Assembly: GCA_009377605.1 (NCBI GenBank)
Contig: WHTT01000029.1
Coordinates: 247-64,246 of the forward strand
Reading direction: 5' to 3'
Origin: Luteitalea sp.
GTDB taxonomy: Bacteria; Acidobacteriota; Vicinamibacteria; Vicinamibacterales; Vicinamibacteraceae
DNA: 64,000 nt
Shown: positions 18,937 to 32,565 of the stretch, piece by piece
Numbering within the stretch: the first letter of the stretch is position 1
How the letters are laid out: every line of letters begins with the position of its first letter
Notes under the pieces: model-generated
The model's input: the letters and a program-made list of their open reading frames with translations, nothing else
Database searches by the model: none
Told to the model about the DNA's origin: nothing
Position numbers and translations under genes: made by a program

Positions 18937-20802
18937 TCAAGGCTCTCGGACGGTTAGCGACAGTCTTCGGTTGCCACTGACGACGTCTTGGGTGGCAATC
19001 TCCCATTCGCCGAGTGGAGCCTGCTCGAGCGACGAAACGCGGCTGCTGTTGCGCTCGCCATTGAGCACGGCCATGACGGAAGGGGGCAGCGCGGGCATCT
19101 TGCGTCCGTTGACGACGGCGCCGGGCGACGGGCTCATGAGGCGAACGTAGACACGATTGTTACGCCGCGCCTCGTTGAAGACGCGAATCATCTGGTCGAT
19201 GCTTTCGGCCTGCTGTGGGGATGGGGCGGTCCCATCCACCTTGGCCATTGCTTGCGCGTCCGCGACGACGAGAGACACGGCGCCGCGGGCAAACTCTGGA
19301 ATCTCGATCGTCAGCGTGCGGGCGATTTCCTCGCCGCGGTACGAGCGCGTCAGCACGTGGAGTCGAACGGTCTCGCCGGCGCGAGGCCGAGGGTTGTCCA
19401 CCCAAATGCGTTCGATGCTGGCGGTGCGCGGTTGCTCCGTGGAGGTGATGGTGAGCGTGACGGGCCCGATTTCGACCGGGGCCACGTCATTGCGCAGAAG
19501 CGCGTTGACCGGTCCCGCCACGTACATTGCGGCTCCCGTCGACGAGGTATCGCCCGCAAAGACATCGTCCAATTCGATCTCGCCGTGGCCGGCCACCTGG
19601 GCTTTGCCACGCACCGTGAACGTTGCGGCGCCGAACTCCCGCTCGTAGGACTGCAGTGTGTTCGCCACGGCAGCGAACGTGAGCAGGGGCGTGAGAAGTT
19701 GGTCGTTGACGAGATCGAAACGGAACGTGCGCGTTGGCACCTGCTCGCTCTCGAGCGTCAGCGCCAGGGGAACCAACTGGGGGCCCGGACCGAGTGAGCC
19801 TGCGATGGCGGTGGCTCGATCTTGGCGCACCCTCCCAATGACGTCGCCCATGCTGTCGATCTTGGTCGACTCCATGAGACTTGGCAGAATCGTGTGCACG
19901 TAGCTGCGCGTCATTGGGATGTCGACAGGCCCCAGATTCAAGAACGGGTGACCAAAGGCATACACGCGCTCCTTGTCCACGTAGGTGACGGTGCCGGAGG
20001 CGCCCAGGCTGAGGTCACCACGAATGAGGCTGAGACCAATGGCGTCACCCGGCTGCAGCGGGCCAAGCTTACGGGTTGGGGTCGCGTCTGCGGGCTGGCC
20101 GGTCACCGGCGTGAAGCCGGCAGAGGCGAACGCCGAGCTCAAGAGTCGCTCGGCCTCACCGCTGAAACCGCCCAACGTCAGCGGCGTCGCGATAGGGCGC
20201 AGCGCCACGCCGTAGCGTGTGGCTGTTTGTGGGGGAACCCCGAGCGCGCGAAGCTCCTCGGCGGATTGCGCAAATGGCCGCAGCCGGTCGAAGGTGTCCC
20301 TGAGCGCAGCAGCCAAGGCTTCGCGCGTCGTCGGCAGCTCGGCAAGCGCGCGGCGGGCGGCGGCCGGTCGGAAGGCGCCTCGTGCGGTGGCCTCGGTCAT
20401 TTCCTCGATGGGGGTGATGCCGGCAATCGGCTCCTTCGCAAAGTTGCCGAGCGCATAGGAGACGGCGCCGACCAGCCGACCGTCGATGAAGACGGGGCTG
20501 CCACTCATGCCGGCTACAACACCTGCTTGCGCGAGCGGGCCGCCCTCCAGCTTGACCAGAATGAGACGCCGCCTGGCACCGAGGACGTTCTCGAGAACAC
20601 CGAGGACCTGGACGCGAAACTCCGAGCGCGTCGCCCCCTGAAAGACCGAGACACCGGTGCCGCGCATGCCGGCCCGCACCTCACTCACCGGCATGAATGG
20701 CGTACGTGAGTCGAGTGGGGAAGAGGCCCTCACGGGCACCAGGGTGAGCCAGGCGCCAGCAAGTGCAGCGAGCACGGCTCCGAGAGCTCGAAAGGTAGTC
20801 AT
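18937..20802 (-). CDS. Secreted S55 (SpoIVB-type) serine peptidase-like protein
   Basis: 621 residues: signal peptide (about 1-26), then the SpoIVB/S55 domain with the nucleophile motif GMSGSPVF (Ser102 the likely nucleophile) and a GHPF motif (VYAFGHPFLNLG). The C-terminal third has no recognised domain. In Bacillus, SpoIVB is a sporulation signalling protease. Here no sporulation gene is present, so this is the broader non-sporulating S55 group, whose substrates are unknown. It lies upstream of the propeller gene on the same strand across a 92-bp repeat-filled gap. Catalytic identity is fairly sure; biological role is not. Confidence 0.82.
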   Translation of the reverse strand: MTTFRALGAVLAALAGAWLTLVPVRASSPLDSRTPFMPVSEVRAGMRGTGVSVFQGATRSEFRVQVLGVLENVLGARRRLILVKLEGGPLAQAGVVAGMSGSPVFIDGRLVGAVSYALGNFAKEPIAGITPIEEMTEATARGAFRPAAARRALAELPTTREALAAALRDTFDRLRPFAQSAEELRALGVPPQTATRYGVALRPIATPLTLGGFSGEAERLLSSAFASAGFTPVTGQPADATPTRKLGPLQPGDAIGLSLIRGDLSLGASGTVTYVDKERVYAFGHPFLNLGPVDIPMTRSYVHTILPSLMESTKIDSMGDVIGRVRQDRATAIAGSLGPGPQLVPLALTLESEQVPTRTFRFDLVNDQLLTPLLTFAAVANTLQSYEREFGAATFTVRGKAQVAGHGEIELDDVFAGDTSSTGAAMYVAGPVNALLRNDVAPVEIGPVTLTITSTEQPRTASIERIWVDNPRPRAGETVRLHVLTRSYRGEEIARTLTIEIPEFARGAVSLVVADAQAMAKVDGTAPSPQQAESIDQMIRVFNEARRNNRVYVRLMSPSPGAVVNGRKMPALPPSVMAVLNGERNSSRVSSLEQAPLGEWEIATQDVVSGNRRLSLTVREP

Positions 20803-20911
20803 TGAACAGGGCGCGAACGAGACGGCTCTTAGAGCCGTTATAGCATGAATTCACGGATGGGGTAGCGGGTCGCCACACGTGCGCGCCGGACGTGGTATTT
20901 CCACGCGGCCG

Positions 20912-20971
20912 ACAGGGTCCCTCTCCACAGGGTCCCTCTCCACAGGGTCCCTCTCCACAGGGTCCCTCTCC
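20912..20971 (+). repeat. Four exact 15-bp tandem repeats
   Basis: Unit ACAGGGTCCCTCTCC at 20912, 20927, 20942 and 20957, no mismatches. The unit itself contains the palindrome AGGGTCCCT. It ends 4 bp before the candidate -35 box of the aromatic leader, so copy number could affect upstream activator binding or spacing. No spacer or CRISPR architecture. Confidence 0.9.
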
Positions 20972-20974
20972 ACC

Positions 20975-21002
20975 TTGTCACCCCGTCACCGATTGTGATA
21001 GT
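20975..21002 (+). promoter_or_regulatory. Candidate promoter of the aromatic amino-acid operon
   Basis: TTGTCA (20975-20980), a 16-bp spacer and GATAGT (20997-21002). Transcription would start around 21008-21010, only a few nucleotides before the leader ORF ATG at 21015. The -10 match is modest, so this is the best candidate rather than a certain assignment. Confidence 0.35.
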
Positions 21003-21014
21003 TTCTATCGAACC

Positions 21015-21122
21015 ATGTTCGCGCCTTCGCGCTTCCGATTCCCGTTTGGCTACCGCCCCACGAGCTTTAGCGGCTCGTTTCGGTGGTGGTACCGAATCGT
21101 GGCCGGAGGGGTGGAGACCTAA
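21015..21122 (+). CDS. Aromatic amino-acid leader peptide (attenuator)
   Basis: A 35-codon ORF, start ATG 21015-21017, stop TAA 21120-21122. Ten of 35 residues are aromatic: Phe2, Phe7, Phe9, Phe11, Tyr13, Phe18, Phe22, Trp24, Trp25 and Tyr26. The tandem Trp codons (21084-21089) followed directly by Tyr are the classical mark of a control-codon block. The ORF is followed 49 nt later by a strong terminator and 86 nt later by aroDE and the trp genes. It encodes no product of its own; translation is meant to stall when charged aromatic tRNA is short. Having Phe, Tyr and Trp codons in one leader matches the mixed gene content of the operon. No strong ribosome-binding site is visible. Confidence 0.85.
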   Translation: MFAPSRFRFPFGYRPTSFSGSFRWWYRIVAGGVET

Positions 21123-21171
21123 ATCGCGCGCAGAACAGCAATACCGAAGCGCACGACTCACGAGCAAATCG

Positions 21172-21204
21172 AGCCCCTTCAGCCACCGGTTGAAGGGGCT
21201 TTTT
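21172..21204 (+). terminator. Attenuator terminator before aroDE
   Basis: Stem of AGCCCCTTCA (21172-21181) with TTGAAGGGGCT (21190-21200), loop about 8 nt, followed immediately by a T-tract (21200-21204): a textbook rho-independent terminator. GGAGGGG (21105-21111), lying 16 nt after the Trp-Trp-Tyr codons, can pair with CCCCTTC (21174-21180) of the 5' arm, forming the competing antiterminator. The 3' arm GAAGGGG also lies 10 nt before the aroDE ATG and can serve as its Shine-Dalgarno sequence, so folding could block translation too. Confidence 0.85.
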
Positions 21205-21208
21205 CATT

Positions 21209-22693
21209 ATGGGCTTACCAGCGCGCTTGTGCGGGACGGTGACGGCAGCCACGGTCCAGGACCTTCGTCGCGCCCGCGACGAGGTCGGTCCCCTCGTGGA
21301 CTTGGTCGAGCTGCGCCTGGACGGCGTCCAGGAGCCGGAAGTCGCGGCGGTCCTCGCAGGGCGGCAGCGGCCTGTCGTCGTTTCGTGTCGTCCGGTCTGG
21401 GAGGGTGGACAGTTCGAGGGGCCGGAGGAAGCGCGCGAGCAACTGCTCACCGCTGCGCTGACCGGTGGGGCGGAGTTCGTGGACGTGGAATGGCGCGCCT
21501 CGTTTCGAGAGCGCCTTCTGGAGCGCGATCCGTCGCGCGTGGTGGTGTCGTTCCACGACTTCGAAGGCGTGCCGGCCGATCTTGCCGCCCTGGTCCAGGC
21601 CATGGCTGACAGCCGAGCCGCGGTGGTGAAGGTCGCCGTACGGGTAGAGCGGCTGGCGAGCCTCCTTCCACTCCTGGCGCTCGGCGAGCAATATCGCGAT
21701 CGCGGTGTGGTCGTCATCGGCATGGGCGTCGCGGGTGTGCCGAGCCGGGTGCTCGCCGCTCGCTTCGGCTCGCGCTGGACGTATGGCGGAGAAGGCGTCG
21801 CCCCAGGTCAGCTGCCGGTCGCTCGTCTGCGCGAGGAGTTTCGCCTCGACCGGATCACGCGCGCGTCGACGATCTACGCCGTTGTTGGATGCCCGGTCGG
21901 CCATTCGCTCTCGCCTGCGATGCACAACGCGGCGTTCGCGGAGCTGGGCATCGACGCCGCGTACGTCCCCTGTGAATCGCCGGACTTCGATGACTTCCTG
22001 ACCTTTGCCGAAGCCATGGACCTTCGTGGCTGCAGCGTGACGGCGCCGTTCAAGCGATCAGCGCTTGCGGCCGCCGCTTCTCGCTCTGCGTTGGCCGAAC
22101 AACTCGGTGTCGCGAACACCTTGCGGCGCAGCCGAGATGGCTGGGAGGCGCGCAACACGGACGTGGAGGGGTTTCTCGCGCCGCTTCGAGCGCGCCACTC
22201 GTTACAGGGGATCGCTGCGTCGGTCCTCGGCGGCGGTGGCGCCGCCCGCGCCGTGGTCGCGGGTCTGGTCGGCGAAGGCGTGGAGGTCACCGTCCACGCG
22301 CGGCGGCGCGAGCAGGCGGAAGCCGTGGCTGCCTTTGGGGCTCGCGTTGGCGGCTGGCCGCCGCAACCGGACGGCTGGGACTTACTCGTCAATGCGACCC
22401 CAGTCGGGACCTGGCCCCAAGTCGATGCGCTCCCGCTGTCTACGGCGTGCCTCCGCGGATCGCCGCCGGCGCCGGCGGACGCCGGCCGGCCCGGGCGGAT
22501 CGTCTACGACCTCGTGACGAACCCGCAGGAGACACGGCTGCTGCGCGAGGCACAGGCGCACGGGCACGAGACGATTCCGGGGCTCGAGATGCTCGTGGTG
22601 CAGGCCGCGCGCCAGTGTGAGTGGTGGACCGGCCGGCCCGCGCCGGTCGAGGCCATGCGGGAGGCGGCGCTCCGGCGCCTTCGAGCGGAGTGA
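21209..22693 (+). CDS. aroDE: Fused 3-dehydroquinate dehydratase / shikimate dehydrogenase
   Basis: 494-residue bifunctional enzyme for steps 3 and 4 of the shikimate pathway. Residues about 5-215 are a type I dehydroquinate dehydratase with Glu34 (VELRLD), His116 (SFHDFEG) and the Schiff-base Lys141 (VVKVAVRV). From about 222 comes shikimate dehydrogenase: GHSLSPAMHNAAF (shikimate-binding Ser residues), VTAPFK with the catalytic Lys (His of the usual VTIPHK replaced by Phe), NTDVEGF with the catalytic Asp, and the Gly-rich NADP-binding LGGGGAAR. The domain order matches plant DHD/SHD. First structural gene after the attenuator; next gene trpE starts 5 bp after its stop. Confidence 0.95.
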   Translation: MGLPARLCGTVTAATVQDLRRARDEVGPLVDLVELRLDGVQEPEVAAVLAGRQRPVVVSCRPVWEGGQFEGPEEAREQLLTAALTGGAEFVDVEWRASFRERLLERDPSRVVVSFHDFEGVPADLAALVQAMADSRAAVVKVAVRVERLASLLPLLALGEQYRDRGVVVIGMGVAGVPSRVLAARFGSRWTYGGEGVAPGQLPVARLREEFRLDRITRASTIYAVVGCPVGHSLSPAMHNAAFAELGIDAAYVPCESPDFDDFLTFAEAMDLRGCSVTAPFKRSALAAAASRSALAEQLGVANTLRRSRDGWEARNTDVEGFLAPLRARHSLQGIAASVLGGGGAARAVVAGLVGEGVEVTVHARRREQAEAVAAFGARVGGWPPQPDGWDLLVNATPVGTWPQVDALPLSTACLRGSPPAPADAGRPGRIVYDLVTNPQETRLLREAQAHGHETIPGLEMLVVQAARQCEWWTGRPAPVEAMREAALRRLRAE

Positions 22694-22698
22694 CGACG

Positions 22699-24183
22699 AT
22701 GAAGCAGACCACCTTCGAGGAGTTCGTCGACCTGGCGCGCCGCGGCACCTTCGTGCCGGTGTGCCGCGAGCGCCTCGCCGACCTCCTCACGCCGGTCTCC
22801 GCATTCCTCCGCGTCGCTGAGCACGCCGATTACGCGTTCCTGCTCGAGAGCGTGGAAGGCGGTGAGCAGGTCGCGCGCTACTCGTTTCTCGGCAAGGATC
22901 CGTTCGTGGTATTGCGTGCCCGGAACGGGCGCACACTCCTCGAGAAGGCTGGGAGCACGACAGCGGTCGACAAGCCATTCATCGAGGCGCTGCGCGGGCT
23001 CATGGCGGAGTATCGCGCGCCGTTCGTGCCGGGCCTTCCGCGATTCACGGGCGGCGCGGTGGGGTATGTGAGCTACGATGCCGTGCGCTGGTTCGAGCCC
23101 TCTCTGGAGCATGCATGGGCACGGGCTACGCAGGAGCCGAGCGAGGAAGACGAAGCGGCGTTCATGCTGTTCGACACGGTGCTGGCATTCGATCATGTCA
23201 AGCATCGAATCCTGCTGATTGCCAACGCGCGAATCACCCCGAGCGAGAGCCTCGAGACGCTGTACCAGTTCGCCTGCGCGCGCCTGGATTTTCTCGAGCG
23301 CGAGCTGGATCGTTACGCCTCGCAGCCGGCGTCTCGCAACGCTCCCGCGCCGGTCGTGAACGCGCGCCTCACACGGGAGGCGTACGAGGCGGCCGTGTGC
23401 ACGGCGAAAGAGTACATCGCGGCGGGCGATGCCTATCAGATCGTGCCGTCGCAGCGATTCGACGTCGAGGTGGCGGTAGATCCCTTCAACGTGTACCGCG
23501 CGCTGCGTTACGTCAATCCGTCGCCCTACATGTTCTTCGTGCGGCTTGGTGAGCTCTCGATCGTTGGCTCCTCGCCAGAGATGTTGGTGCGGGTCGAGGG
23601 TCGCCGTGCGGCCACACACCCCATTGCCGGCACGCGGCCGCGCGGCCGCACCGATGAGGAAGACCTGCGCTTGGCGGAGGAGCTGAAGCGAGACGAGAAA
23701 GAGCGCGCCGAGCACGTGATGCTCGTCGATCTGGGACGCAACGATCTGGGGCGTGTGTGCGACTACGGCACGGTGCGGGTGCCCATCTACATGGCGCTCG
23801 AGCGCTATTCGCACGTCATGCACCTCGTCTCGCGCGTCGAGGGCCAGCTCGCCGACGATCAGGATTGCCTCGACGCACTCGTGGCCTGCTTCCCAGCCGG
23901 CACGGTCACTGGCGCGCCGAAGATCCGCGCGATGGAGATCATCTCAGAGCTGGAACCGACCCGGCGGGGGATCTATGCCGGCGCGGTGGGCTATCTGGAC
24001 TTCGCCGGAAACCTCGATTGCTGCATTGCAATCAGAACGATTGCGATGCGCAACGGCATCGCTCAGGTTCAAGCCGGGGGGGGCGTCGTGGCGGATTCCA
24101 ACCCGGCGATGGAGTACGAGGAATCGTGTAATAAGGCGCAAGCGTTGTTCCATGCCCTCGAGCTCGCACAGCGTATGACTTAG
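22699..24183 (+). CDS. trpE: Anthranilate synthase component I
   Basis: Converts chorismate plus ammonia to anthranilate, the first committed Trp step. 494 residues. The N-terminal LLES motif (48-51) forms the tryptophan feedback site. The C-terminal chorismate-binding domain is complete: PIAGTRPRGRTDEED, LVDLGRNDLGRV, GTVTGAPKIRAMEIISELEP, and GGGVVADSNPAMEYEE. So the enzyme should be Trp-inhibited as well as under attenuation. Starts at the ATG 5 bp after aroDE; the open frame further upstream overlaps aroDE and is not used. Its stop is followed at once by the arm of an inverted repeat. Confidence 0.97.
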   Translation: MKQTTFEEFVDLARRGTFVPVCRERLADLLTPVSAFLRVAEHADYAFLLESVEGGEQVARYSFLGKDPFVVLRARNGRTLLEKAGSTTAVDKPFIEALRGLMAEYRAPFVPGLPRFTGGAVGYVSYDAVRWFEPSLEHAWARATQEPSEEDEAAFMLFDTVLAFDHVKHRILLIANARITPSESLETLYQFACARLDFLERELDRYASQPASRNAPAPVVNARLTREAYEAAVCTAKEYIAAGDAYQIVPSQRFDVEVAVDPFNVYRALRYVNPSPYMFFVRLGELSIVGSSPEMLVRVEGRRAATHPIAGTRPRGRTDEEDLRLAEELKRDEKERAEHVMLVDLGRNDLGRVCDYGTVRVPIYMALERYSHVMHLVSRVEGQLADDQDCLDALVACFPAGTVTGAPKIRAMEIISELEPTRRGIYAGAVGYLDFAGNLDCCIAIRTIAMRNGIAQVQAGGGVVADSNPAMEYEESCNKAQALFHALELAQRMT

Positions 24184-24332
24184 AAGGTTCGAGGTTCGAG
24201 GTGCGAGGTTCGAGGTGAGGGGAAACCAGCGTGGAAGCCTCGAACTTTCGACCTTCAACGTCGGAATTCAACCCGTGCAGCGTCGACTTTGCACATTTAA
24301 CCTTGAACCTCGAACCTTGAACCTCGAACCTT
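24184..24332. repeat. Inverted tandem-word repeat between trpE and trpG
   Basis: Left arm 24184-24217 (AAGGTTCGAGGTTCGAGG words) and right arm 24299-24332 (AACCTCGAACCTT words) are complementary at 30 of 34 positions, spacer 81 nt. The left arm begins right after the trpE TAG; the right arm ends directly against the trpG ATG. A transcript would form a long stem that buries the trpG start, and there is no separate Shine-Dalgarno sequence. Confidence 0.8.
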
Positions 24333-24920
24333 ATGGTTCTCCTGATCGACAACTACGATTCGTTCACGTTCAACCTGGCGCAGTACCTCGGAGAGCTGGG
24401 CGCGGAGCTCCGTGTCACGCGGAACGACCAGATAACGCTCGATGAGGTTGCAGCGCTGCGGCCGGAGCACATCGTGATATCGCCAGGACCGGGACGGCCC
24501 GAGCATGCCGGCATCACGGTGGAGCTCGTCAAGCGCTTCGCCCCGACTGTACCGATGTTGGGCGTCTGCTTGGGGCACCAAGCGATGGGGCTGGCATTTG
24601 GTGGGCGCGTGGTGCCGGCCGCCCGTCTCATGCACGGCAAGACTTCGCTCGTGGCGCACGATGGCCAGGGCGTCTTTCGCGGGCTCGATCGCACGTTCGT
24701 GGCCGCCCGCTACCACTCGCTGACCGTGTCCACCACAGAGGTTCCGGAGTCGCTCGTCGTCACGGCGAGCACCGTCGACGATCAGACGATGATGGGCTTG
24801 CGGCACCGCGTGTATCCCATGTACGGGGTGCAGTTCCACCCGGAGTCGGTGCTGACCGATGTCGGCAGGCGCATTTTGAGAAACTTCCTCGAGATCAGCA
24901 ATGTTCCGCACGCTGCTTGA
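24333..24920 (+). CDS. trpG: Anthranilate synthase component II (glutamine amidotransferase)
   Basis: Class I glutamine amidotransferase that supplies ammonia to TrpE. 195 residues. Oxyanion region VISPGPGRPEHAG, nucleophile Cys79 in GVCLGHQ, catalytic His169 and Glu171 in VQFHPES. N-terminal LLIDNYDSFTFNL is characteristic of TrpG/PabA. A single amidotransferase may serve both anthranilate and p-aminobenzoate synthesis; no pabB is seen in the window. The ATG abuts the arm of an inverted repeat and the 3' end overlaps trpD by 20 bp. Confidence 0.96.
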   Translation: MVLLIDNYDSFTFNLAQYLGELGAELRVTRNDQITLDEVAALRPEHIVISPGPGRPEHAGITVELVKRFAPTVPMLGVCLGHQAMGLAFGGRVVPAARLMHGKTSLVAHDGQGVFRGLDRTFVAARYHSLTVSTTEVPESLVVTASTVDDQTMMGLRHRVYPMYGVQFHPESVLTDVGRRILRNFLEISNVPHAA

Positions 24921-25923
24921 ACAACTTCTGCGGCACGAGGACCTGACGACCGACGCGACCGAGGCGGCGATGGCCACGATCATGCGCGGCGAGGCGGGTG
25001 CGGCGACGATCGCTGGCTTCCTCGTGGCCCTGCGTGCGAAGGGGGAGCGGCCGGCCGAGCTCGTGGGCCTGGCGCGTGCCATGCGGGCCGCTGCCGTGCC
25101 ACTCTCCTCGCGGGTCGACGACGCGTTCGACACCTGCGGCACCGGCGGTGATGGAACCGGCACGATCAACGTGTCGTCGTTGACGGCGCTCGTGGTGGCC
25201 GCCGCCGGCGTGCCGGTGGCCAAGCACGGCAACCGCTCGGTCTCGAGCCAGTGTGGCAGTGCAGATGTGTTCGAGGCGCTTGGCGTGCGGATCGGGGCAC
25301 CGCCCGCCGTGGTGGAGCGAAGCCTCCGCACGGCCGGCATCGCGTTCTTCTTTGCACCGACGTTTCATCCGGCGATGCGGCACGCGACGCCCGTGCGCAA
25401 AGAGCTCGGCGTCCGGAGCGCCTTCAACCTGCTCGGACCGTTGACCAATCCCGCGGGCGCGCGCCGCCAGCTCGTCGGCGTGCCCCGGCCAGAATTGACG
25501 GAGCTCGTCGCGCGGACGCTCGGGCTCTTGGGGTCCGATCACGTGTGGGTGGTGCATGCGGCGGACGGCCTGGACGAGTTGTCGACAACCGGATATTCGA
25601 AAGTCTCCGAGTGCCGGCACGGGGTGATGCGGACCTTCTATGTGCACCCTGCTGACTTCGGCTTGCCGAAAGGGCAGCTCACGGATCTGACCGGTGGCGA
25701 TGCAGCGACCAATGCCGCGATTGCTCGCGCGGTCCTCGAAGGGCAGGTCGGACCGGCGCGCGATATCGTGCTGTTGAACGCGGGGGCCGCGCTGTTCATT
25801 GCGGGTCGTGCGGCATCGTTACAACAAGGCATCCAGATGGCTGCCAACGCACTCGACGAGAGACGCGCAGCCGTGGTCTTGGATCGCATGGTCGAAGCAT
25901 CCCACGACGACGGTGAACGATGA
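24901..25923 (+). CDS. trpD: Anthranilate phosphoribosyltransferase
   Basis: Transfers phosphoribose from PRPP to anthranilate. 340 residues, with the PRPP-binding DTCGTGGDGTGTINVSSL, KHGNRSVSSQCGSADVFEALG and RSAFNLLGPLTNP signatures complete. Starts inside trpG (20-bp overlap) and its last codons overlap the trpC start by ATGA. It is a separate gene, not fused to trpG as in enterics. Confidence 0.97.
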   Translation: MFRTLLEQLLRHEDLTTDATEAAMATIMRGEAGAATIAGFLVALRAKGERPAELVGLARAMRAAAVPLSSRVDDAFDTCGTGGDGTGTINVSSLTALVVAAAGVPVAKHGNRSVSSQCGSADVFEALGVRIGAPPAVVERSLRTAGIAFFFAPTFHPAMRHATPVRKELGVRSAFNLLGPLTNPAGARRQLVGVPRPELTELVARTLGLLGSDHVWVVHAADGLDELSTTGYSKVSECRHGVMRTFYVHPADFGLPKGQLTDLTGGDAATNAAIARAVLEGQVGPARDIVLLNAGAALFIAGRAASLQQGIQMAANALDERRAAVVLDRMVEASHDDGER

Positions 25924-26750
25924 TGCGTCAGAGTAACGCTAGCCTCCTGTCCACGGTCGTTGCCGCGACCAAGCGCATCGTCGAGGGCCGCGCGGCGCGC
26001 CGGCCCTGCGCAGTGCTGGACGCGGAGGCGCCGGTGCGTCTGCCGAGGAGCAGGTCGTTCGTCGAAGCGCTGACCAAGGCAGACCGCGTCAATGTCATTG
26101 CCGAGTGCAAGCGGCGATCGCCAGCACGTGGCCTTCTCCGCAACGCGTACGACGCCGCGGCCATCGCAGACGAGTACGAGGCCGCGGGCGCGGCAGCCAT
26201 TTCTGTTCTCACGGAGCCAACGTTCTTCGACGGTCACCCTGACCATCTCACTGCAGTACGTGAGACCGTGACCGTGCCAGTCCTGCGCAAGGACTTCATC
26301 GTCGATGCGTATCAACTGCACGAAGCGCGGGCCATGGGCGCCGACGCGGTGTTGCTCATCGTGGCTGCGCTCGACGAGCCCGCGCTCACGAGCCTGCTGG
26401 GCGAGGCGCAGACGCTTGGATTGGCGGCGCTGGTCGAGGTGCACGACGAGGTCGAGCTGACTACCGCGTTGTCGGCCGGGGCCTCCATCATCGGCGTGAA
26501 CAATCGAAATCTCCAGACGCTCGAGGTCTCGCTCGATGTCGCGGAACGTCTGATCGACGAGATCCCGGACGATCGTGTCGCCGTCGCGGAGAGTGGTCTG
26601 CGCACCGGCACCGATCTCGGGCGCCTACGGGAGCGAGGCTACGACGCGTTCCTCGTCGGCGAGCGGTTCATGACGGCGCCGAGTCCGGGTCGCGCGCTCG
26701 CGGAGGTGATCGACGAGGCGACCGCGCTCACTGGGAGGGAGAGCCGGTGA
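25920..26750 (+). CDS. trpC: Indole-3-glycerol-phosphate synthase
   Basis: Ring closure and decarboxylation of CdRP. 276-residue TIM barrel with the family motifs VIAECKRRSPARG (catalytic Lys), VLTEPTFFDG, VPVLRKDFIVDAYQ (catalytic Lys), NNRNLQTLEV, VAVAESGLRT and FLVGERFM. The start overlaps trpD (ATGA), and its stop overlaps the GTG start of trpF. Not fused to trpF, unlike E. coli. Confidence 0.96.
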   Translation: MMRQSNASLLSTVVAATKRIVEGRAARRPCAVLDAEAPVRLPRSRSFVEALTKADRVNVIAECKRRSPARGLLRNAYDAAAIADEYEAAGAAAISVLTEPTFFDGHPDHLTAVRETVTVPVLRKDFIVDAYQLHEARAMGADAVLLIVAALDEPALTSLLGEAQTLGLAALVEVHDEVELTTALSAGASIIGVNNRNLQTLEVSLDVAERLIDEIPDDRVAVAESGLRTGTDLGRLRERGYDAFLVGERFMTAPSPGRALAEVIDEATALTGRESR

Positions 26751-27415
26751 GCCGCGCCGCTCGCGCAAACGTGGCCAACGAACCGCTCTTCCAGAGCGCG
26801 AGCGTTGCCGTCAAGATATGCGGCGTGACACGGCCGCAGGACGCCGCCCTCGCGGCAGCGCTCGGCGCGTCGGCGATTGGACTCGTGTTTTGGCCGAACA
26901 GCCCGCGTGCCGTGACGATGCCGCAGGCAAGAAGCATCGTCGACGCGGTGCCCCCGTTCACGACCGTGGTTGGCGTCTTCGTGGACCAACCGATGGAAGA
27001 GGTGATTCGGATGGCGGTCAGCTTGGGCTTGGGCGCGGTCCAATTACACGGGCACGAAAGCGTCGATCACCTGCAGCGGATTCCGTGCCGCGTCATCAAG
27101 GCGCTCGACGTCGGCGAGTACGCCACGAGCGAGTGGGTGAGTGCTCCAAGAGAGCGCGTGACGATCTTGCTGGATGCCATCGATCCGGTACGGCGCGGCG
27201 GCACGGGGCAGCAAATCGATTGGAGGGCTGCCGCGCGCATCGCCGGTCAACGCCGCGTCATCCTCTCCGGCGGTCTTCGACCGGACAACGTCGCGGAGGC
27301 GATTGGAGCGGTGCGGCCGTACGCGGTCGATGTGGCGTCTGGCGTCGAGCGCGCGCCAGGCGTCAAGGACCACGATCGCATGCGCGCGTTCATGGATGCC
27401 GTGTGTAGGCCCTAA
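26747..27415 (+). CDS. trpF: Phosphoribosylanthranilate isomerase
   Basis: Amadori rearrangement of PRA to CdRP. 222 residues; catalytic Cys in [12 protein letters not shown], catalytic Asp in ILLDAI, phosphate-binding [10 protein letters not shown] and [17 protein letters not shown] start in a GTGA overlap with trpC. About 20 residues precede the usual first strand, a short N-terminal extension or a sign that translation starts slightly later. Confidence 0.95.
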
Positions 27416-27434
27416 GTCGGGCACGGAGATCAGC

Positions 27435-28697
27435 ATGTCCAACGACACCACCGTGATGGCGACGCCAGGGCCGGTCTTTGCCCGGCGCGATCCGGACGAG
27501 CGCGGATACTTCGGACCGTTCGGAGGGCGCTTCGTGCCCGAGACGTTGGTCGCCCCCATTGCGGAGCTCACGGACGCGTACCTCGCCGTGCGGCGGGACG
27601 GAACGTTTCGCGAGGAGCTGATGCGGCTGTTTCACGAGTATGCCGGCCGTCCCACGCCGCTCCACGAGGCGCGGCGGTTTGCTGCCGAGTGCGGCGACGC
27701 GCGTATCGTCCTCAAGCGGGAGGACCTCGCGCATACCGGAGCGCACAAGATCAACAACGCGCTCGGCCAAGCGCTGCTCGCCGTGCGCATGGGCAAGCGG
27801 CGCATCGTGGCGGAGACCGGCGCCGGCCAACATGGCGTGGCCACGGCAACGGTCTGTGCGCTACTCGGCCTCGAGTGCGACATCTACATGGGCGCCGAGG
27901 ACATGCGCCGGCAGGCGCTCAACGTGTTTCGCATGGAGCTGTTGGGCGCCTCGGTGCATCGCGTCGATGCGGGGAGCTGCACGCTCAAGGACGCGATCAA
28001 CGAAGCCATGCGCGACTGGGTGACCAATGTTCGCCACACGCACTACCTGCTGGGGTCGGTGCTTGGGCCACATCCATATCCGTTGATGGTTCGCGAGTTC
28101 CAATCGGTCATTGGCCAGGAAGCACGCGAGCAGTGTCTGGCACGGTTCGGCCGGCTGCCAGACGCCGTGGTGGCCTGCGTGGGAGGAGGCAGCAATGCGC
28201 TGGGGATCTTCGATGCGTTCATCGAGGACGTGTCGGTGCGCCTGATTGGCGTCGAGGCTGGCGGCACTGCCATCAGCCCAGGCCGGCATGCGGCGCGGTT
28301 TGCGGGCGGTGCGCCTGGTGTTCTGCAAGGTACCAGGACGCTGCTGCTCCAGGACGATCACGGCAACATCGAGCTCACACACTCCATTTCGGCGGGCCTC
28401 GATTACCCGGCAGTCGGCCCCGAGCATGCGTGGCTCGCGGCGCAGGGACGCGCCGAGTATCGGTACGCCAGCGACGACGAAGCGCTGGAGGCGTTCTTGG
28501 CGCTCGGTAAGCTCGAAGGGATCTTACCAGCGCTCGAGTCGTCGCATGCGCTGGCGGCCGTGCGGGCGATCGGACAGGAGGGCGGCCGGGGCGCATTGAT
28601 TCTCGTGAACCTGTCCGGGCGCGGCGACAAGGACGTTCAGTCCGTGCAGCGGGCCTTGGCCACACGCCGGCGCGAGACAGAGGAGGTGGGTCGGTGA
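27435..28697 (+). CDS. trpB: Tryptophan synthase beta chain
   Basis: Condenses indole with serine using PLP. 420 residues: [14 protein letters not shown] near the N-terminus, PLP lysine Lys105 in [26 protein letters not shown], and the phosphate-binding [12 protein letters not shown]. All points to the main TrpB1 type that pairs with TrpA. The ATG at 27435 has a GGAG box 6 nt upstream; the frame is open further upstream inside trpF but homology starts here. Its stop overlaps the trpA GTG. Confidence 0.97.
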
Positions 28698-29500
28698 GTC
28701 AGCGGATCGCCGAGACGTTCGCGCGTCTCAAGGTGGAGCGACGTTGCGGGCTCGTCGCCTTTATCACGGCTGGCGATCCCGATCGCGCGCGCACGGCCGG
28801 CGTGCTGCGCGCGGTAGATGCGGGGGGCGCCGATGTGATCGAGATCGGGGTCCCGTTCTCGGACCCGCTCGCTGACGGTCCGATCATCCAGCGCGCCTCG
28901 GAGCGGGCGCTGGCCGCCGGGATGACGCTTTCCGCGACACTCGAGTTGATCGGCGAGCAGCGCGCGGCCGTCCGCGCGCCAATCGTGCTCTTCACGTACG
29001 CCAACCCGGTCGTGCGCATGGGTGTGGCACCGTTCGCGGCACGCGCGGCTGACGTCGGCGTCGATGGCGTGCTGCTCGTCGACGTGCCGATCGAAGAGGC
29101 AGCGCCGTTCCATGAAGCGTTGTCCTCGGCCCAGCTCGATCCGATCTGCCTCGTCAGCCCAACGACCAGCGACGATCGGATCCGCCGCTCGGCCGAGGCC
29201 GGCCGCGGCTTCCTGTATGCGATCTCACGCCTCGGCGTGACAGGTATGCGGGATCGGATCGCCGCAGAGGCGCAAGCGCTCGTCGGCCGCATCCGGCAGC
29301 AGACGACGATGCCCGTTGCCGTGGGGTTTGGTTTATCCCGGCCCGAGCACGTCCATGAGGTCGGCGGCTGGGCGGACGCGGCCGTCGTGGGTAGCGCGCT
29401 GGTGGCGGAGGTGGCCAACCATGCAGATGCACCGGCGCTCGAAGCACGCGTGAGCGAGTTCGTGCGCTGGCTCCGCAATGGAAGCGAGCCAACGGCATGA
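28694..29500 (+). CDS. trpA: Tryptophan synthase alpha chain
   Basis: Cleaves indole-3-glycerol phosphate and passes indole to TrpB. 268 residues with the catalytic pair Glu50 and Asp61 in [15 protein letters not shown], loop 6 residues SRLGVTGMR and phosphate-binding [14 protein letters not shown] start in a GTGA overlap with trpB; stop overlaps the chorismate mutase start (ATGA). Confidence 0.97.
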
Positions 29501-29823
29501 GCATTGACGAGCTCAGGCGCGCGATCGATGCCATTGACGAGCGACTCGTCCGGCTGCTCAACCGGCGCGCGAGCTGCGCCCTGCAGGTAGGACGTTTCAA
29601 GAAAGAAGCGGGGTTGGATATCTACCAGCCGGATCGCGAGCATGACGTGCTCGAGCACGTCCGTCGCCGTAATGATGGCCCGCTCGACGATGCTGCGATC
29701 ACGCGGCTGTTCGAGCGGATCATCGACGAGAACCGGCGACTCGAACGGGTGGTCCACGAGGGGCTCACCCCGGACACGGCCGAGCCAAACGGCCTTGCGG
29801 ATGCGTTGGACACGAACGATTAA
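29497..29823 (+). CDS. Chorismate mutase (AroQ type)
   Basis: 108 residues, a stand-alone all-helical AroQ chorismate mutase: IDELRRAIDAIDERLVRLLNRRASCALQVGRFKKEAG..YQPDREHDVLEHV..., carrying the conserved Arg in LRRAID, the Arg/Lys of the middle helix and the C-terminal IIDENR. Converts chorismate to prephenate and so opens the Phe/Tyr branch. It overlaps trpA by 4 bp, placing the branch-point enzyme in the same transcript as the Trp genes. Confidence 0.93.
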   Translation: MSIDELRRAIDAIDERLVRLLNRRASCALQVGRFKKEAGLDIYQPDREHDVLEHVRRRNDGPLDDAAITRLFERIIDENRRLERVVHEGLTPDTAEPNGLADALDTND

Positions 29824-29874: not shown

Positions 29875-30924
29875 ATGGTGGTCGTCATGCAAGAACGAGC
29901 GAGCGAAGATCAAGTCCAGAAGGTCATCGCGCAACTGGTCGAGATGGGATACGACGTGCACCGATCGACGGGTGCGCTGCGCACGGTCATTGGCGCGGTC
30001 GGCAACAATCGCAAGGCGGATCCGCGGCTCGTCGAGGTGCTCGACGGCGTCCGTGAAGTGCTGCGGATTACCGAGCCGTACAAGTTGGCGAGCCGCACGT
30101 TCAGGCCAGAGAACACGATTGTCAACGTCGGCGACGTCCGCATAGGTGGCGACGAGGTGGTCGTGATGGCCGGGCCATGCTCGGCGGAGAACGAGCAGCA
30201 GGTCATGTCGGCGGCAGCCGCGGTGAAACGCGGTGGCGGCAAGATCCTGCGGGGTGGCGCGTTCAAGCCGCGCACATCGCCCTACAGCTTCCAGGGCCTC
30301 GGTGAGGAGGGGCTGCGGCTGCTCGGCTCGGCGGCCAAGGAGCACGACCTGCAGCTCGTCTCGGAGGTCATGGACGCGAGTCAGATCGAGCTCTTGGAGC
30401 GCTACGTCGACATCTATCAGGTTGGCGCCCGCAACATGCAGAACTTCACGCTCCTGCGCGAGCTCGGCCGCGTACGCAAACCGGTGCTGCTCAAGCGCGG
30501 GATCTCCGCCACCATCGAGGAGCTGCTGCTCTCCGCGGAGTATGTGCTCGCAGGTGGCAATATGGAGGTCATCCTCTGCGAGCGTGGTATCCGCACGTTC
30601 GAGAGCTACACGCGGAACACGCTCGATATCTCGGCCATCCCCGTCGTGAAGAAGCTGAGTCACCTTCCCATTTTCGTCGACCCAAGCCATGGCACGGGGC
30701 GACGGGACAAGGTCGCGCCCATGGCGCGAGCAGCCGTTGCTGCAGGTGCCGATGGCCTGCTCATCGAGGTTCACTGTGACCCGGATCACGCGCTCAGCGA
30801 CGGCGCCCAGTCGCTCTATCCCACGCAGTTCGATCGTTTGATGGCAGAGCTCCGAATCATTGCGCCGGCCATTGGGCGTAGCATCTGTTTGGAGCCGGTC
30901 GCCCGCCGCGGCTGGGGGCAGTGA
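29875..30924 (+). CDS. aroF: DAHP synthase (type I, KDO8P-synthase-like group)
   Basis: First step of the shikimate pathway: PEP plus erythrose 4-phosphate to DAHP. 349 residues. An N-terminal ferredoxin-like domain (about 1-80) as in the Thermotoga enzyme, where it mediates Phe/Tyr feedback, is followed by the barrel with [42 protein letters not shown] and [12 protein letters not shown] metal and substrate motifs. ATG at 29875 with a purine-rich upstream tract; a second ATG four codons later is possible. The stop TGA runs into an inverted repeat arm. Confidence 0.95.
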
Positions 30925-31128: not shown

Positions 31129-32565
31129 ATGTTTCGGCGCCTTGCGATCGTTGGGTTCGGCCTGATCGGTGGGTCGCTCGGTCTGGCCGTGCGCCGTGCC
31201 TGGCCCGACTGCGAGGTCGTCGCGATCGAGCGAGCCGATGCACCTGAGATGCCGGCGGCGCGGAGCGCCGGCTTTCATGTGGCGTCTGAGCTGGCTGCGG
31301 TCACGGGCGCCGACGTCACGGTGCTCGCAACGCCCGTCGCCCAGAACATCGCGTTGCTCGAGCCGCTGACCGCCCATCTCTCGGGAAACGCGGTCGTCAC
31401 CGACGTTGGCAGCACGAAGCGTGCGATCCTCGCCGCCGCCCAGGCGCTGCATCGGCCGTACGCGTTTGTTGGTGGCCATCCCCTCGCGGGCGACGCGCCA
31501 GGCGGTTTCGACCGCGCGCGCGCCGACCTCTTCGCGGGCAAGCCGTGGCTGCTGACGCCGCTGCCCGGTGAGGCGCAGAGCGCCGCTGTGGCCTCCATCG
31601 CAGCCCTGGCTGCCGGCATCGAGGCATATCCCCGACTGGTGGATGCGCAGGAGCACGATCGGCTGATGGCATACGTGAGTCATCTGCCGCAGTTGGTGGC
31701 CAGTGCGCTGATGCACACGATCGGCTCCGCGCTCGGCGGCACACACGACCTCGCGTTGTCGGGCACAGGTCTGCTCGACACCACGCGGCTCGCGGCCAGT
31801 CCCGCCTCCGTCTGGATTGACATTCTGCAGACGAATGCGGATGAGATCGGCCGGGCGGTCGAGGCGTTCGTGCACGCGGTGACCGGGGCTCATCCGGAGA
31901 ATGCAGACTCGTCGGCGTTGCGCGGGCTCCTCGAGAGCGGCAACGATTGGCGGCGCACGCTCGAATCGCGTATTGCCTTCCAGTCAAACGTCCCAACTCA
32001 AACAGCCGCACCTGCGTGGGAGCCCAGGCCTCCCGCCAGCGGACGCGGTCGTAGGAGGGTGGTGGCCACCCGGTTCTACCTCGAAATGACCTCTCCTGAC
32101 GCCCTCAAGCCGGCAGCGCTGAACGACGCCTCGGCATGCGTAGAGCAGATACGCAACGGCCCACCATCGTTCTACCGCTATCTGTATCGAGAGGTCGGCC
32201 GCCGGTACCACTGGCGCGAGCGCTACGACTGGAACGACGAGCGCATCGGTCGGCACCTCGCTCGACCTGGACTCGAGCTGTGGCTGCTGCGGGTCGGGGG
32301 AGCCCCCGCGGGGTTCTTCGAGCTGAGAAGTGCTGATGACGGCAACACGGAGATTGCGTACTTTGGGCTGCTCGAGGAGTTCATCGGCCGGGGTTATGGC
32401 AAGGGGCTGCTCACTGCGGCCGCGAAGGCGGGATGGGCTGCGGGGGCGCGCCGGTTGTGGGTCCACACGTGCTCGCTCGACCACCCGGCGGCGCTACGCA
32501 ACTACTTCGCGCGAGGCTTCACGCTGTATCACCAGGAAGAATACGAGGCTTGGTTGCCAGGGTAG
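31129..32565 (+). CDS. tyrA: Prephenate dehydrogenase fused to a GNAT acetyltransferase
   Basis: 478 residues. Residues 1-about 285 are prephenate/arogenate dehydrogenase: GFGLIGGSLG NAD motif, DVGSTK, GGHPLAGDAPGGF with the catalytic His, and EHDRLMAYVSHLPQ. This makes hydroxyphenylpyruvate for Tyr. A Pro/Arg/Ala-rich linker (about 285-312) leads to a GNAT-type acetyltransferase (about 313-478) with the acetyl-CoA loop RGYGKGLL. This domain combination is unusual. The linker DNA contains two small palindromes (32018-32034 and 32057-32071), so the fusion may have arisen by repeat insertion that removed a stop. What the acetyltransferase acts on is unknown. Last gene of the aromatic operon. 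Confidence 0.9.
   Translation: MFRRLAIVGFGLIGGSLGLAVRRAWPDCEVVAIERADAPEMPAARSAGFHVASELAAVTGADVTVLATPVAQNIALLEPLTAHLSGNAVVTDVGSTKRAILAAAQALHRPYAFVGGHPLAGDAPGGFDRARADLFAGKPWLLTPLPGEAQSAAVASIAALAAGIEAYPRLVDAQEHDRLMAYVSHLPQLVASALMHTIGSALGGTHDLALSGTGLLDTTRLAASPASVWIDILQTNADEIGRAVEAFVHAVTGAHPENADSSALRGLLESGNDWRRTLESRIAFQSNVPTQTAAPAWEPRPPASGRGRRRVVATRFYLEMTSPDALKPAALNDASACVEQIRNGPPSFYRYLYREVGRRYHWRERYDWNDERIGRHLARPGLELWLLRVGGAPAGFFELRSADDGNTEIAYFGLLEEFIGRGYGKGLLTAAAKAGWAAGARRLWVHTCSLDHPAALRNYFARGFTLYHQEEYEAWLPG

Follow-up and report, generated by a model that had tools for sequence, protein, structure and literature searches.

Leader peptides with codons for more than one amino acid are known, and the thr attenuator, for instance, is multivalent, with both Thr and Ile codons. 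A multivalent attenuator is also named for the ilvGEDA operon of E. coli in the title of an early report (Lawther & Hatfield 1980, title cited in PMC3783181). Both share with the locus described here the presence of codons for several operon products in one leader, and both set a precedent for an OR gate in logic, but they serve the branched-chain or Thr pathways and no sequence relation is known. The E. coli trp attenuator (trpL, Yanofsky; Rfam Trp_leader) resembles it in the tandem Trp codons, the mutually exclusive antiterminator and terminator, the promoter-proximal position and an operon with trpE. Unlike trpL, the conserved block here includes Tyr, the operon adds aroDE, chorismate mutase (CM), DAHP synthase and tyrA, the antiterminator arm lies within the end of the open reading frame (ORF), and the start codon is near the predicted transcription start. 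In C. glutamicum, the AroR leader 5′ of aroF carries Phe-Tyr-Phe and no Trp, with a response to Phe and no effect of Tyr (Neshat 2014), and the trp operon has a separate trpL leader, both as far as the account in PMC11802643 goes. AroR thus also places several kinds of aromatic codon before an aromatic-pathway operon, whereas the present leader contains Trp. Attenuators of Acidobacteria had no assigned function in a survey of 2010 (PMC2965389).

An Rfam search of the element, at the gathering score and at E-values up to 5, gave no match to a leader family, T-box or riboswitch. Moreover, a literature search covering mostly papers outside subscription access returned no described Trp/Tyr or His/Trp/Tyr leader and no paper joining leader peptide, attenuation, trp operon and Acidobacteria. 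The mechanism class is a known one, while the Trp/Tyr and His/Trp/Tyr codon combinations look new. The original prediction of an undescribed multi-signal attenuator has to be narrowed accordingly, as multivalent leaders exist (ilvGEDA, AroR), and it stands in that neither this codon combination nor its presence in Acidobacteriota seems to have been described.

The leader region and the operon in the window

The window (the whole stretch of DNA that was analysed, 64,000 nucleotides) contains a leader ORF whose direct translation is MFAPSRFRFPFGYRPTSFSGSFRWWYRIVAGGVET, followed by a stop codon. Ten of the 35 codons are aromatic, namely 6 Phe, 2 Tyr and 2 adjacent Trp (W24-W25-Y26), exactly as had been predicted; His codons are absent. 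An intrinsic terminator (21171-21201), with a 14-pair stem, a 3-nt loop and a T tract, lies 8 nt 5′ of the aroDE ATG. It is followed by 11 genes, assigned by Pfam and homology in the order aroDE, trpE, trpG, trpD, trpC, trpF, trpB, trpA, chorismate mutase, DAHP synthase and tyrA, so that the arrangement of a terminator and then aroDE-trp-aroQ-aroF-tyrA 3′ of the leader was likewise borne out. The gene pheA is found outside the operon, elsewhere in the same genome, and a search for a Phe leader before it found none. A GNAT acetyltransferase domain is fused in frame to tyrA, and a GNAT stretch after tyrA was also observed in relatives of the family.

Features of the leader region and of the aromatic operon in the window
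Feature	Coordinates	Strand	Evidence
Promoter-like site, TTGTCA-16-GATAGT (alternative -10 TAGTTT, 20999-21004)	20975-21002	+	1 found vs 0.1 expected
Leader-peptide ORF, 35 codons	21015-21122	+	No Shine-Dalgarno seen; homologous leaders in relatives
Control block W24-W25-Y26 (TGG TGG TAC)	21084-21092	+	Kind conserved across the order; modelled stalls here leave region 2 free
Region 2 (GGCCGGAGGGG), putative 5′ arm of the antiterminator, within the end of the leader ORF	21101-21111	+	Pairs with terminator 5′ arm
Region 3 (GAGCCCCTTCAGCC), terminator 5′ arm, common to the antiterminator	21171-21184	+	Terminator and helix tests
Region 4 (GGTTGAAGGGGCTT plus T's), terminator 3′ arm and T tract	21188-21205	+	Terminator tests
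aroDE, 3-dehydroquinase/shikimate dehydrogenase fusion, first structural gene	21209-22693	+	Pfam
trpE, trpG, trpD, trpC, trpF, trpB, trpA	22693-29500	+	Pfam and homology
Chorismate mutase (CM_2)	29497-29823	+	Pfam
DAHP synthase (aroF)	29875-30924	+	Pfam
tyrA (prephenate dehydrogenase) with C-terminal GNAT domain	31129-32565	+	Pfam

The promoter-like site ends 12 nt 5′ of the leader ATG, and the transcription start predicted from it (about 21009-21011) is only 4-6 nt 5′ of that codon. No transcription start downstream of 21092, which the original prediction had named as counter-evidence, is indicated, the promoter-like site being 5′ of the ORF. A sigma-70-like site scoring at least 9/12 was present at the matching place in 58 of 77 relatives, compared to 3.6% of shuffles. 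In about half of the relatives the first in-frame start appeared at most 9 nt after the predicted transcription start, and a Shine-Dalgarno-like string preceded the leader start in only 3 of 57. Translation of the leader is probably leaderless, or nearly so, given the closeness of both starts and the rarity of Shine-Dalgarno-like strings. Overall, the distance from the predicted transcription start to the leader start codon was mostly 0-15 nt in the window and its relatives.

Further upstream, the neighbouring gene (18937-20802) is on the opposite strand and points away from the operon. Just 5′ of the promoter, a 53-bp element (about 20865-20917) was observed, of which eight more copies with 81-92% identity occur elsewhere in the genome; it looks like a small dispersed repeat. 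Between this element and the promoter (about 20918-20974), a 15-bp unit, CAGGGTCCCTCTCCA, is repeated in tandem about four times; it was not seen in L002, a relative of the same genus.

Conservation of the element across the order

The comparison set comprised the genome of the window and 148 others from the same genus, family and order, the order being the one to which Luteitalea belongs (GTDB Vicinamibacterales, phylum Acidobacteriota); of these 149 genomes, 138 had the aroDE protein. Nearly all the relatives had, 5′ of aroDE, a short ORF that contains a Trp/Tyr block and then a terminator. The same-genus leader was MRDGVRAGLVFRYRATSFSGSFWRWYRFRAGGADT, and the leaders of other families ended in SAWWWYW, TWWYWCPAGEADRSV, AWRWYWSTTEEASAVA or ASYWWWYRTATEGAAGV. 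Hence the absence of the ORF or of its aromatic codons in relatives, also listed beforehand as counter-evidence, was not what was found, the Trp/Tyr leader being order-wide. A covariance model (R1) built from the elements of 78 relatives matched, at E ≤ 0.001, 132 of the 149 genomes, 90 of the 97 good ones and 77 of 80 genera, 5′ of aroDE-trpEGDCFBA-CM-aroF-tyrA; the building members match by construction, and more than 50 of the 132 matched genomes were not used in building. Each genome had a single site, the extra matches being the reverse strand of the same palindrome. Furthermore, tyrA was present in every operon of the order that was seen to its end. In the phylum sample, R1 matched all 30 genomes of the order and gave only weak matches elsewhere. 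Read one by one, three of these (G225, G385 and G210) appear to be genuine leaders, and three others (G402, G324 and G297) were rejected, with no operon genes nearby and no convincing leader. In G385 (L319/L410), a leader of the Trp/Tyr type ending in AASWWWYRRVSGGRVAC was observed before a distant trpB-like gene and a DAHP synthase, on a different operon. Another weak match, in G273 (L325, about 150-220), corresponded to a leader of branched-chain type, MTPPAVLVLLVLVLILVTQGAN, before a terminator.

Leaders were chosen by their Trp codons alone, to keep the count of Tyr free of selection bias. A Tyr codon was found within positions -2 to +6 of the first Trp in 75 of 78 leaders, and this was seen in each of the 12 leader-bearing families. 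When the 200 nt preceding each terminator were dinucleotide-shuffled, 17% of the shuffles had two Trp codons among five and 0.5% had three, and only 9.5% of the two-Trp shuffles also had a Tyr codon in the cluster. The aromatic leader ORF of the window is thus not due to chance. Trp occupied more positions of the cluster than any other residue (213 of 624, vs. 91 for Tyr), and Tyr made up 15% of the cluster vs. 1.4% of the leader codons that precede it. A total of 41 patterns of W, Y and F were seen among the 78 leaders, in which the place of Tyr shifted (YWWW, WYWYW, WWY, WWWY, WRWYW), and both Tyr codons were used (TAT:TAC, 59:35). The bias was confined to one frame, with frequencies in the three frames of 0.303, 0.003 and 0.016 for W, and 0.134, 0.000 and 0.019 for Y. 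The shifting place, the use of both codons and the single-frame bias together favour codon identity, rather than an invariant RNA pair or peptide, as what is conserved.

Phe enrichment is lineage-specific, involving the family of the window and some others, rather than order-wide. In that family, codons -18 to -3 were Phe in 13 of 80 cases (16%), compared to about 3% off-frame and 3.3% in the proteins of the window, and the Phe signal before the cluster was strong also in f6 and f2; it was 3.8% in f14 and 0.8% in f8. Across the order, Phe before the cluster reached 6.7% in-frame vs. 3.2-3.7% off-frame. Within the cluster, Phe was found in 29 of 78 leaders (18% in the null), and in family f8 it lay inside or just after the cluster in 11 of 15. 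At least one Phe codon was present in positions -18 to +6 in 69 of 78 leaders. In the sister species, the window codons F11, F18 and F22 are kept, and F2, F7 and F9 are not.

The predicted folds were also conserved. The terminator sequence was nearly constant among relatives (GCCTCTTCAGCC...GGTTGAAGAGGC), and the end of the ORF held a segment complementary to its 5′ arm (GAAGAGGC, GGAGAGGC and GAGGGGGC in relatives, GGAGGGG in the window). Tested as a named helix, the antiterminator was paired in 97.9% of 623 cells, of which 23 had changed on both sides vs. 8.4 in shuffles, and a shift of the partner by 1-3 columns lowered pairing to 45-62%. For the terminator helix, 95.4% of cells were paired, with 28 changes on both sides vs. 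7.4 in shuffles; in both helices these counts are uncorrected for relatedness. In an alignment-free comparison, the terminator arm paired best with a leader segment +8 to +36 nt past the first Trp codon in 76 of 78 leaders (37% in a null of shuffled arms), and the median energy of the arm with its best leader partner was -18.7 kcal/mol vs. -12.6 in the null. The RNAalifold consensus on the alignment showed only the terminator, the antiterminator being absent from the consensus fold. Two mutually exclusive predicted folds are supported by covariation.

In a simple model, a ribosome was placed at each codon in turn and the RNA 3′ of it was folded up to region 3. The probability that region 3 is sequestered was 0.94 for modelled stalls at codons 0 to +2, 0.55 at +5 and 0.30 at +12, a drop that would place the Trp/Tyr block immediately on the 5′ side of the point where stalling stops helping. 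Stalls far upstream of this block also gave antitermination in the model, and a Phe input is therefore compatible with it. With free upstream RNA, the model gave no general case of a region 1 sequestering region 2.

Codon content and operon content elsewhere in the phylum

Outside the order, family f41 included operons with and without tyrA after trpA. Where tyrA was present, the leaders were GYYWYWRWASYY (G320), GYDYWYWRG (G333) and GYRWCWWR (G403), and where it was not they were NWHWWRR (G396), CSWRR (G375), LWCWRR (G313), MWCWRR (G228), LWCWRG (G262) and QWRWRG (G183). Thus, Tyr appeared in the cluster in 3 of 3 leaders with tyrA vs. 0 of 6 without it, a contrast that may represent one or two events, since the six genomes without tyrA belong to one genus. 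Two further operons with tyrA had the leaders RYYYWWYM (G204) and NNYFWCWYRQ (G158). Trp-only leaders (WWWW, WWW, WCWRR) occur elsewhere in the phylum. In G403, two copies of trpE (L376 and L385) were observed, with a separate Trp/Tyr leader before each (NYWYWRG and GYRWCWWR, respectively).

In family f16 of a sister order, the operon is aroDE-(ThiF)-hisZ-G-D-C-B-H-A-F-IE-trpE-G-D-C-F-B-A, to which some members add CM-aroF. Its leaders (L351-L361, L393-L402, e.g. L353), such as MTIVRRWRATVHHHRYHA and MRIERWRPTFHHHRHYD, had 2-5 His and 1-2 Trp codons in 10 of 10 cases, and Tyr and Phe were each present in 7 leaders. One member, G426, had neither Tyr nor Phe in its leader, and CM-aroF was not found in it. 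These His-rich leaders before his genes are similar to hisL attenuators; unlike hisL, they mix His with Trp and Tyr/Phe before a single aroDE-his-trp operon, and they are a possible His/Trp/Tyr multi-signal attenuator.

By operon, the leader classes would be Trp only for trp, Trp and Tyr for trp plus tyrA, and His, Trp and Tyr/Phe for aroDE-his-trp-CM-aroF (about 18 kb). Codon content seems to follow operon content as a tendency, with few independent events. Such tracking is not strict, because six genomes outside the order (G213, G242, G168, G243, G271 and G292) had Tyr codons with no tyrA seen in the operon.

Proposed mechanism and alternative explanations

We consider the element to be a ribosome-mediated, multivalent attenuator of transcription that reads Trp and Tyr, with a probability of roughly three in four. 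This reading is based on the order-wide conservation, the covarying terminator and antiterminator and the promoter 5′ of the ORF, all of which strongly support the attenuation by ribosome stalling at control codons that had been proposed. The sequence presents cognate control codons, exclusive conserved folds, a promoter on the 5′ side and structural genes directly 3′, and the control codons are conserved for more than one operon product (Trp and Tyr). RNA polymerase would begin a few nucleotides 5′ of the leader ATG, and a ribosome would translate the leader during its synthesis. With both Trp-tRNA and Tyr-tRNA charged, the ribosome would pass W-W-Y and cover region 2 in the last part of the ORF, regions 3 and 4 would form the terminator and transcription would end 5′ of aroDE. 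If either charged tRNA were scarce, the ribosome would stall at its codon in the block, leaving region 2 (which starts about 17 nt after the first Trp codon) free to pair with region 3, so that no terminator would form. The genes of the common pathway and of the Trp and Tyr branches would then be read, the leader acting as an OR gate for scarcity. From the sequence we infer stalling for uncharged tRNA, readthrough, coupling, the Trp/Tyr OR logic and the sufficiency of a Tyr shortage alone, and Phe may be a third, lineage-specific input.

An ordinary trp attenuator, sensing Trp-tRNA alone and using Tyr for slowing, peptide chemistry or RNA structure, would fit the predominance of Trp in the cluster and the Tyr codons before some operons without tyrA. 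The Tyr codon of AroR in C. glutamicum, without a response to Tyr in the account of PMC11802643, also speaks for it and is the main reason for caution on Tyr as a signal. On the other hand, Tyr was found in 75 of 78 clusters, in shifting places and with both codons, its presence or absence in f41 went with that of tyrA, and the phylum does have Trp-only leaders elsewhere, which makes sensing of Trp alone rather improbable. A stronger form nested in the Trp and Tyr reading, in which Phe, Tyr and Trp are read alike, is possible and we hold it only tentatively. In its favour are the 16% of Phe in the family of the window, the 69 of 78 leaders with Phe in -18 to +6, the position of Phe in or just after the cluster in f8, the upstream stalls that antiterminate in the folding model and the fact that chorismate mutase and DAHP synthase serve Phe too. 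Against it, Phe before the cluster falls to 3.8% in f14 and 0.8% in f8, the sister species has only three of the six Phe codons and pheA sits elsewhere in the genome. The claim that all three aromatic amino acids are read consequently holds for Trp and Tyr, conserved order-wide, and is weakened for Phe, enriched in some families only and with pheA not in the operon.

Two explanations dispense with the sensing of tRNA charging altogether. Bulky aromatic residues, such as those of this leader, are typical of some arrest peptides, and a nascent-peptide arrest device (TnaC/SecM-like) would stall the ribosome through the peptide itself. Unlike in arrest peptides of the TnaC type, no fixed-residue motif was found, as W, Y and F differ freely in order and number from leader to leader (41 patterns among the 78), and what stays constant is the composition and the spacing to region 2, so that this device is very improbable. 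Even less credible is a chance ORF before a constitutive terminator insulating the operon. A strong terminator could insulate by itself, but the conservation, the frame-specific codon bias and the covarying antiterminator are at odds with this, and there would be no transcript for it to stop, as the upstream gene is on the other strand and faces away.

If the Trp and Tyr attenuator is correct, a single device would stand before the whole aromatic supra-operon across an entire order. It is about an even chance that, in Acidobacteriota, the control codons have been re-written with the gain or loss of operon branches (Trp; Trp and Tyr; His, Trp and Tyr/Phe), a single short peptide then acting as an OR gate for scarcity of two to four amino acids from separate pathways. 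The codons seem to track the genes, His included, and these leaders would offer a natural series for studying the evolution of multi-signal regulation, in which the make-up of an operon could be predicted from a 30-residue peptide.
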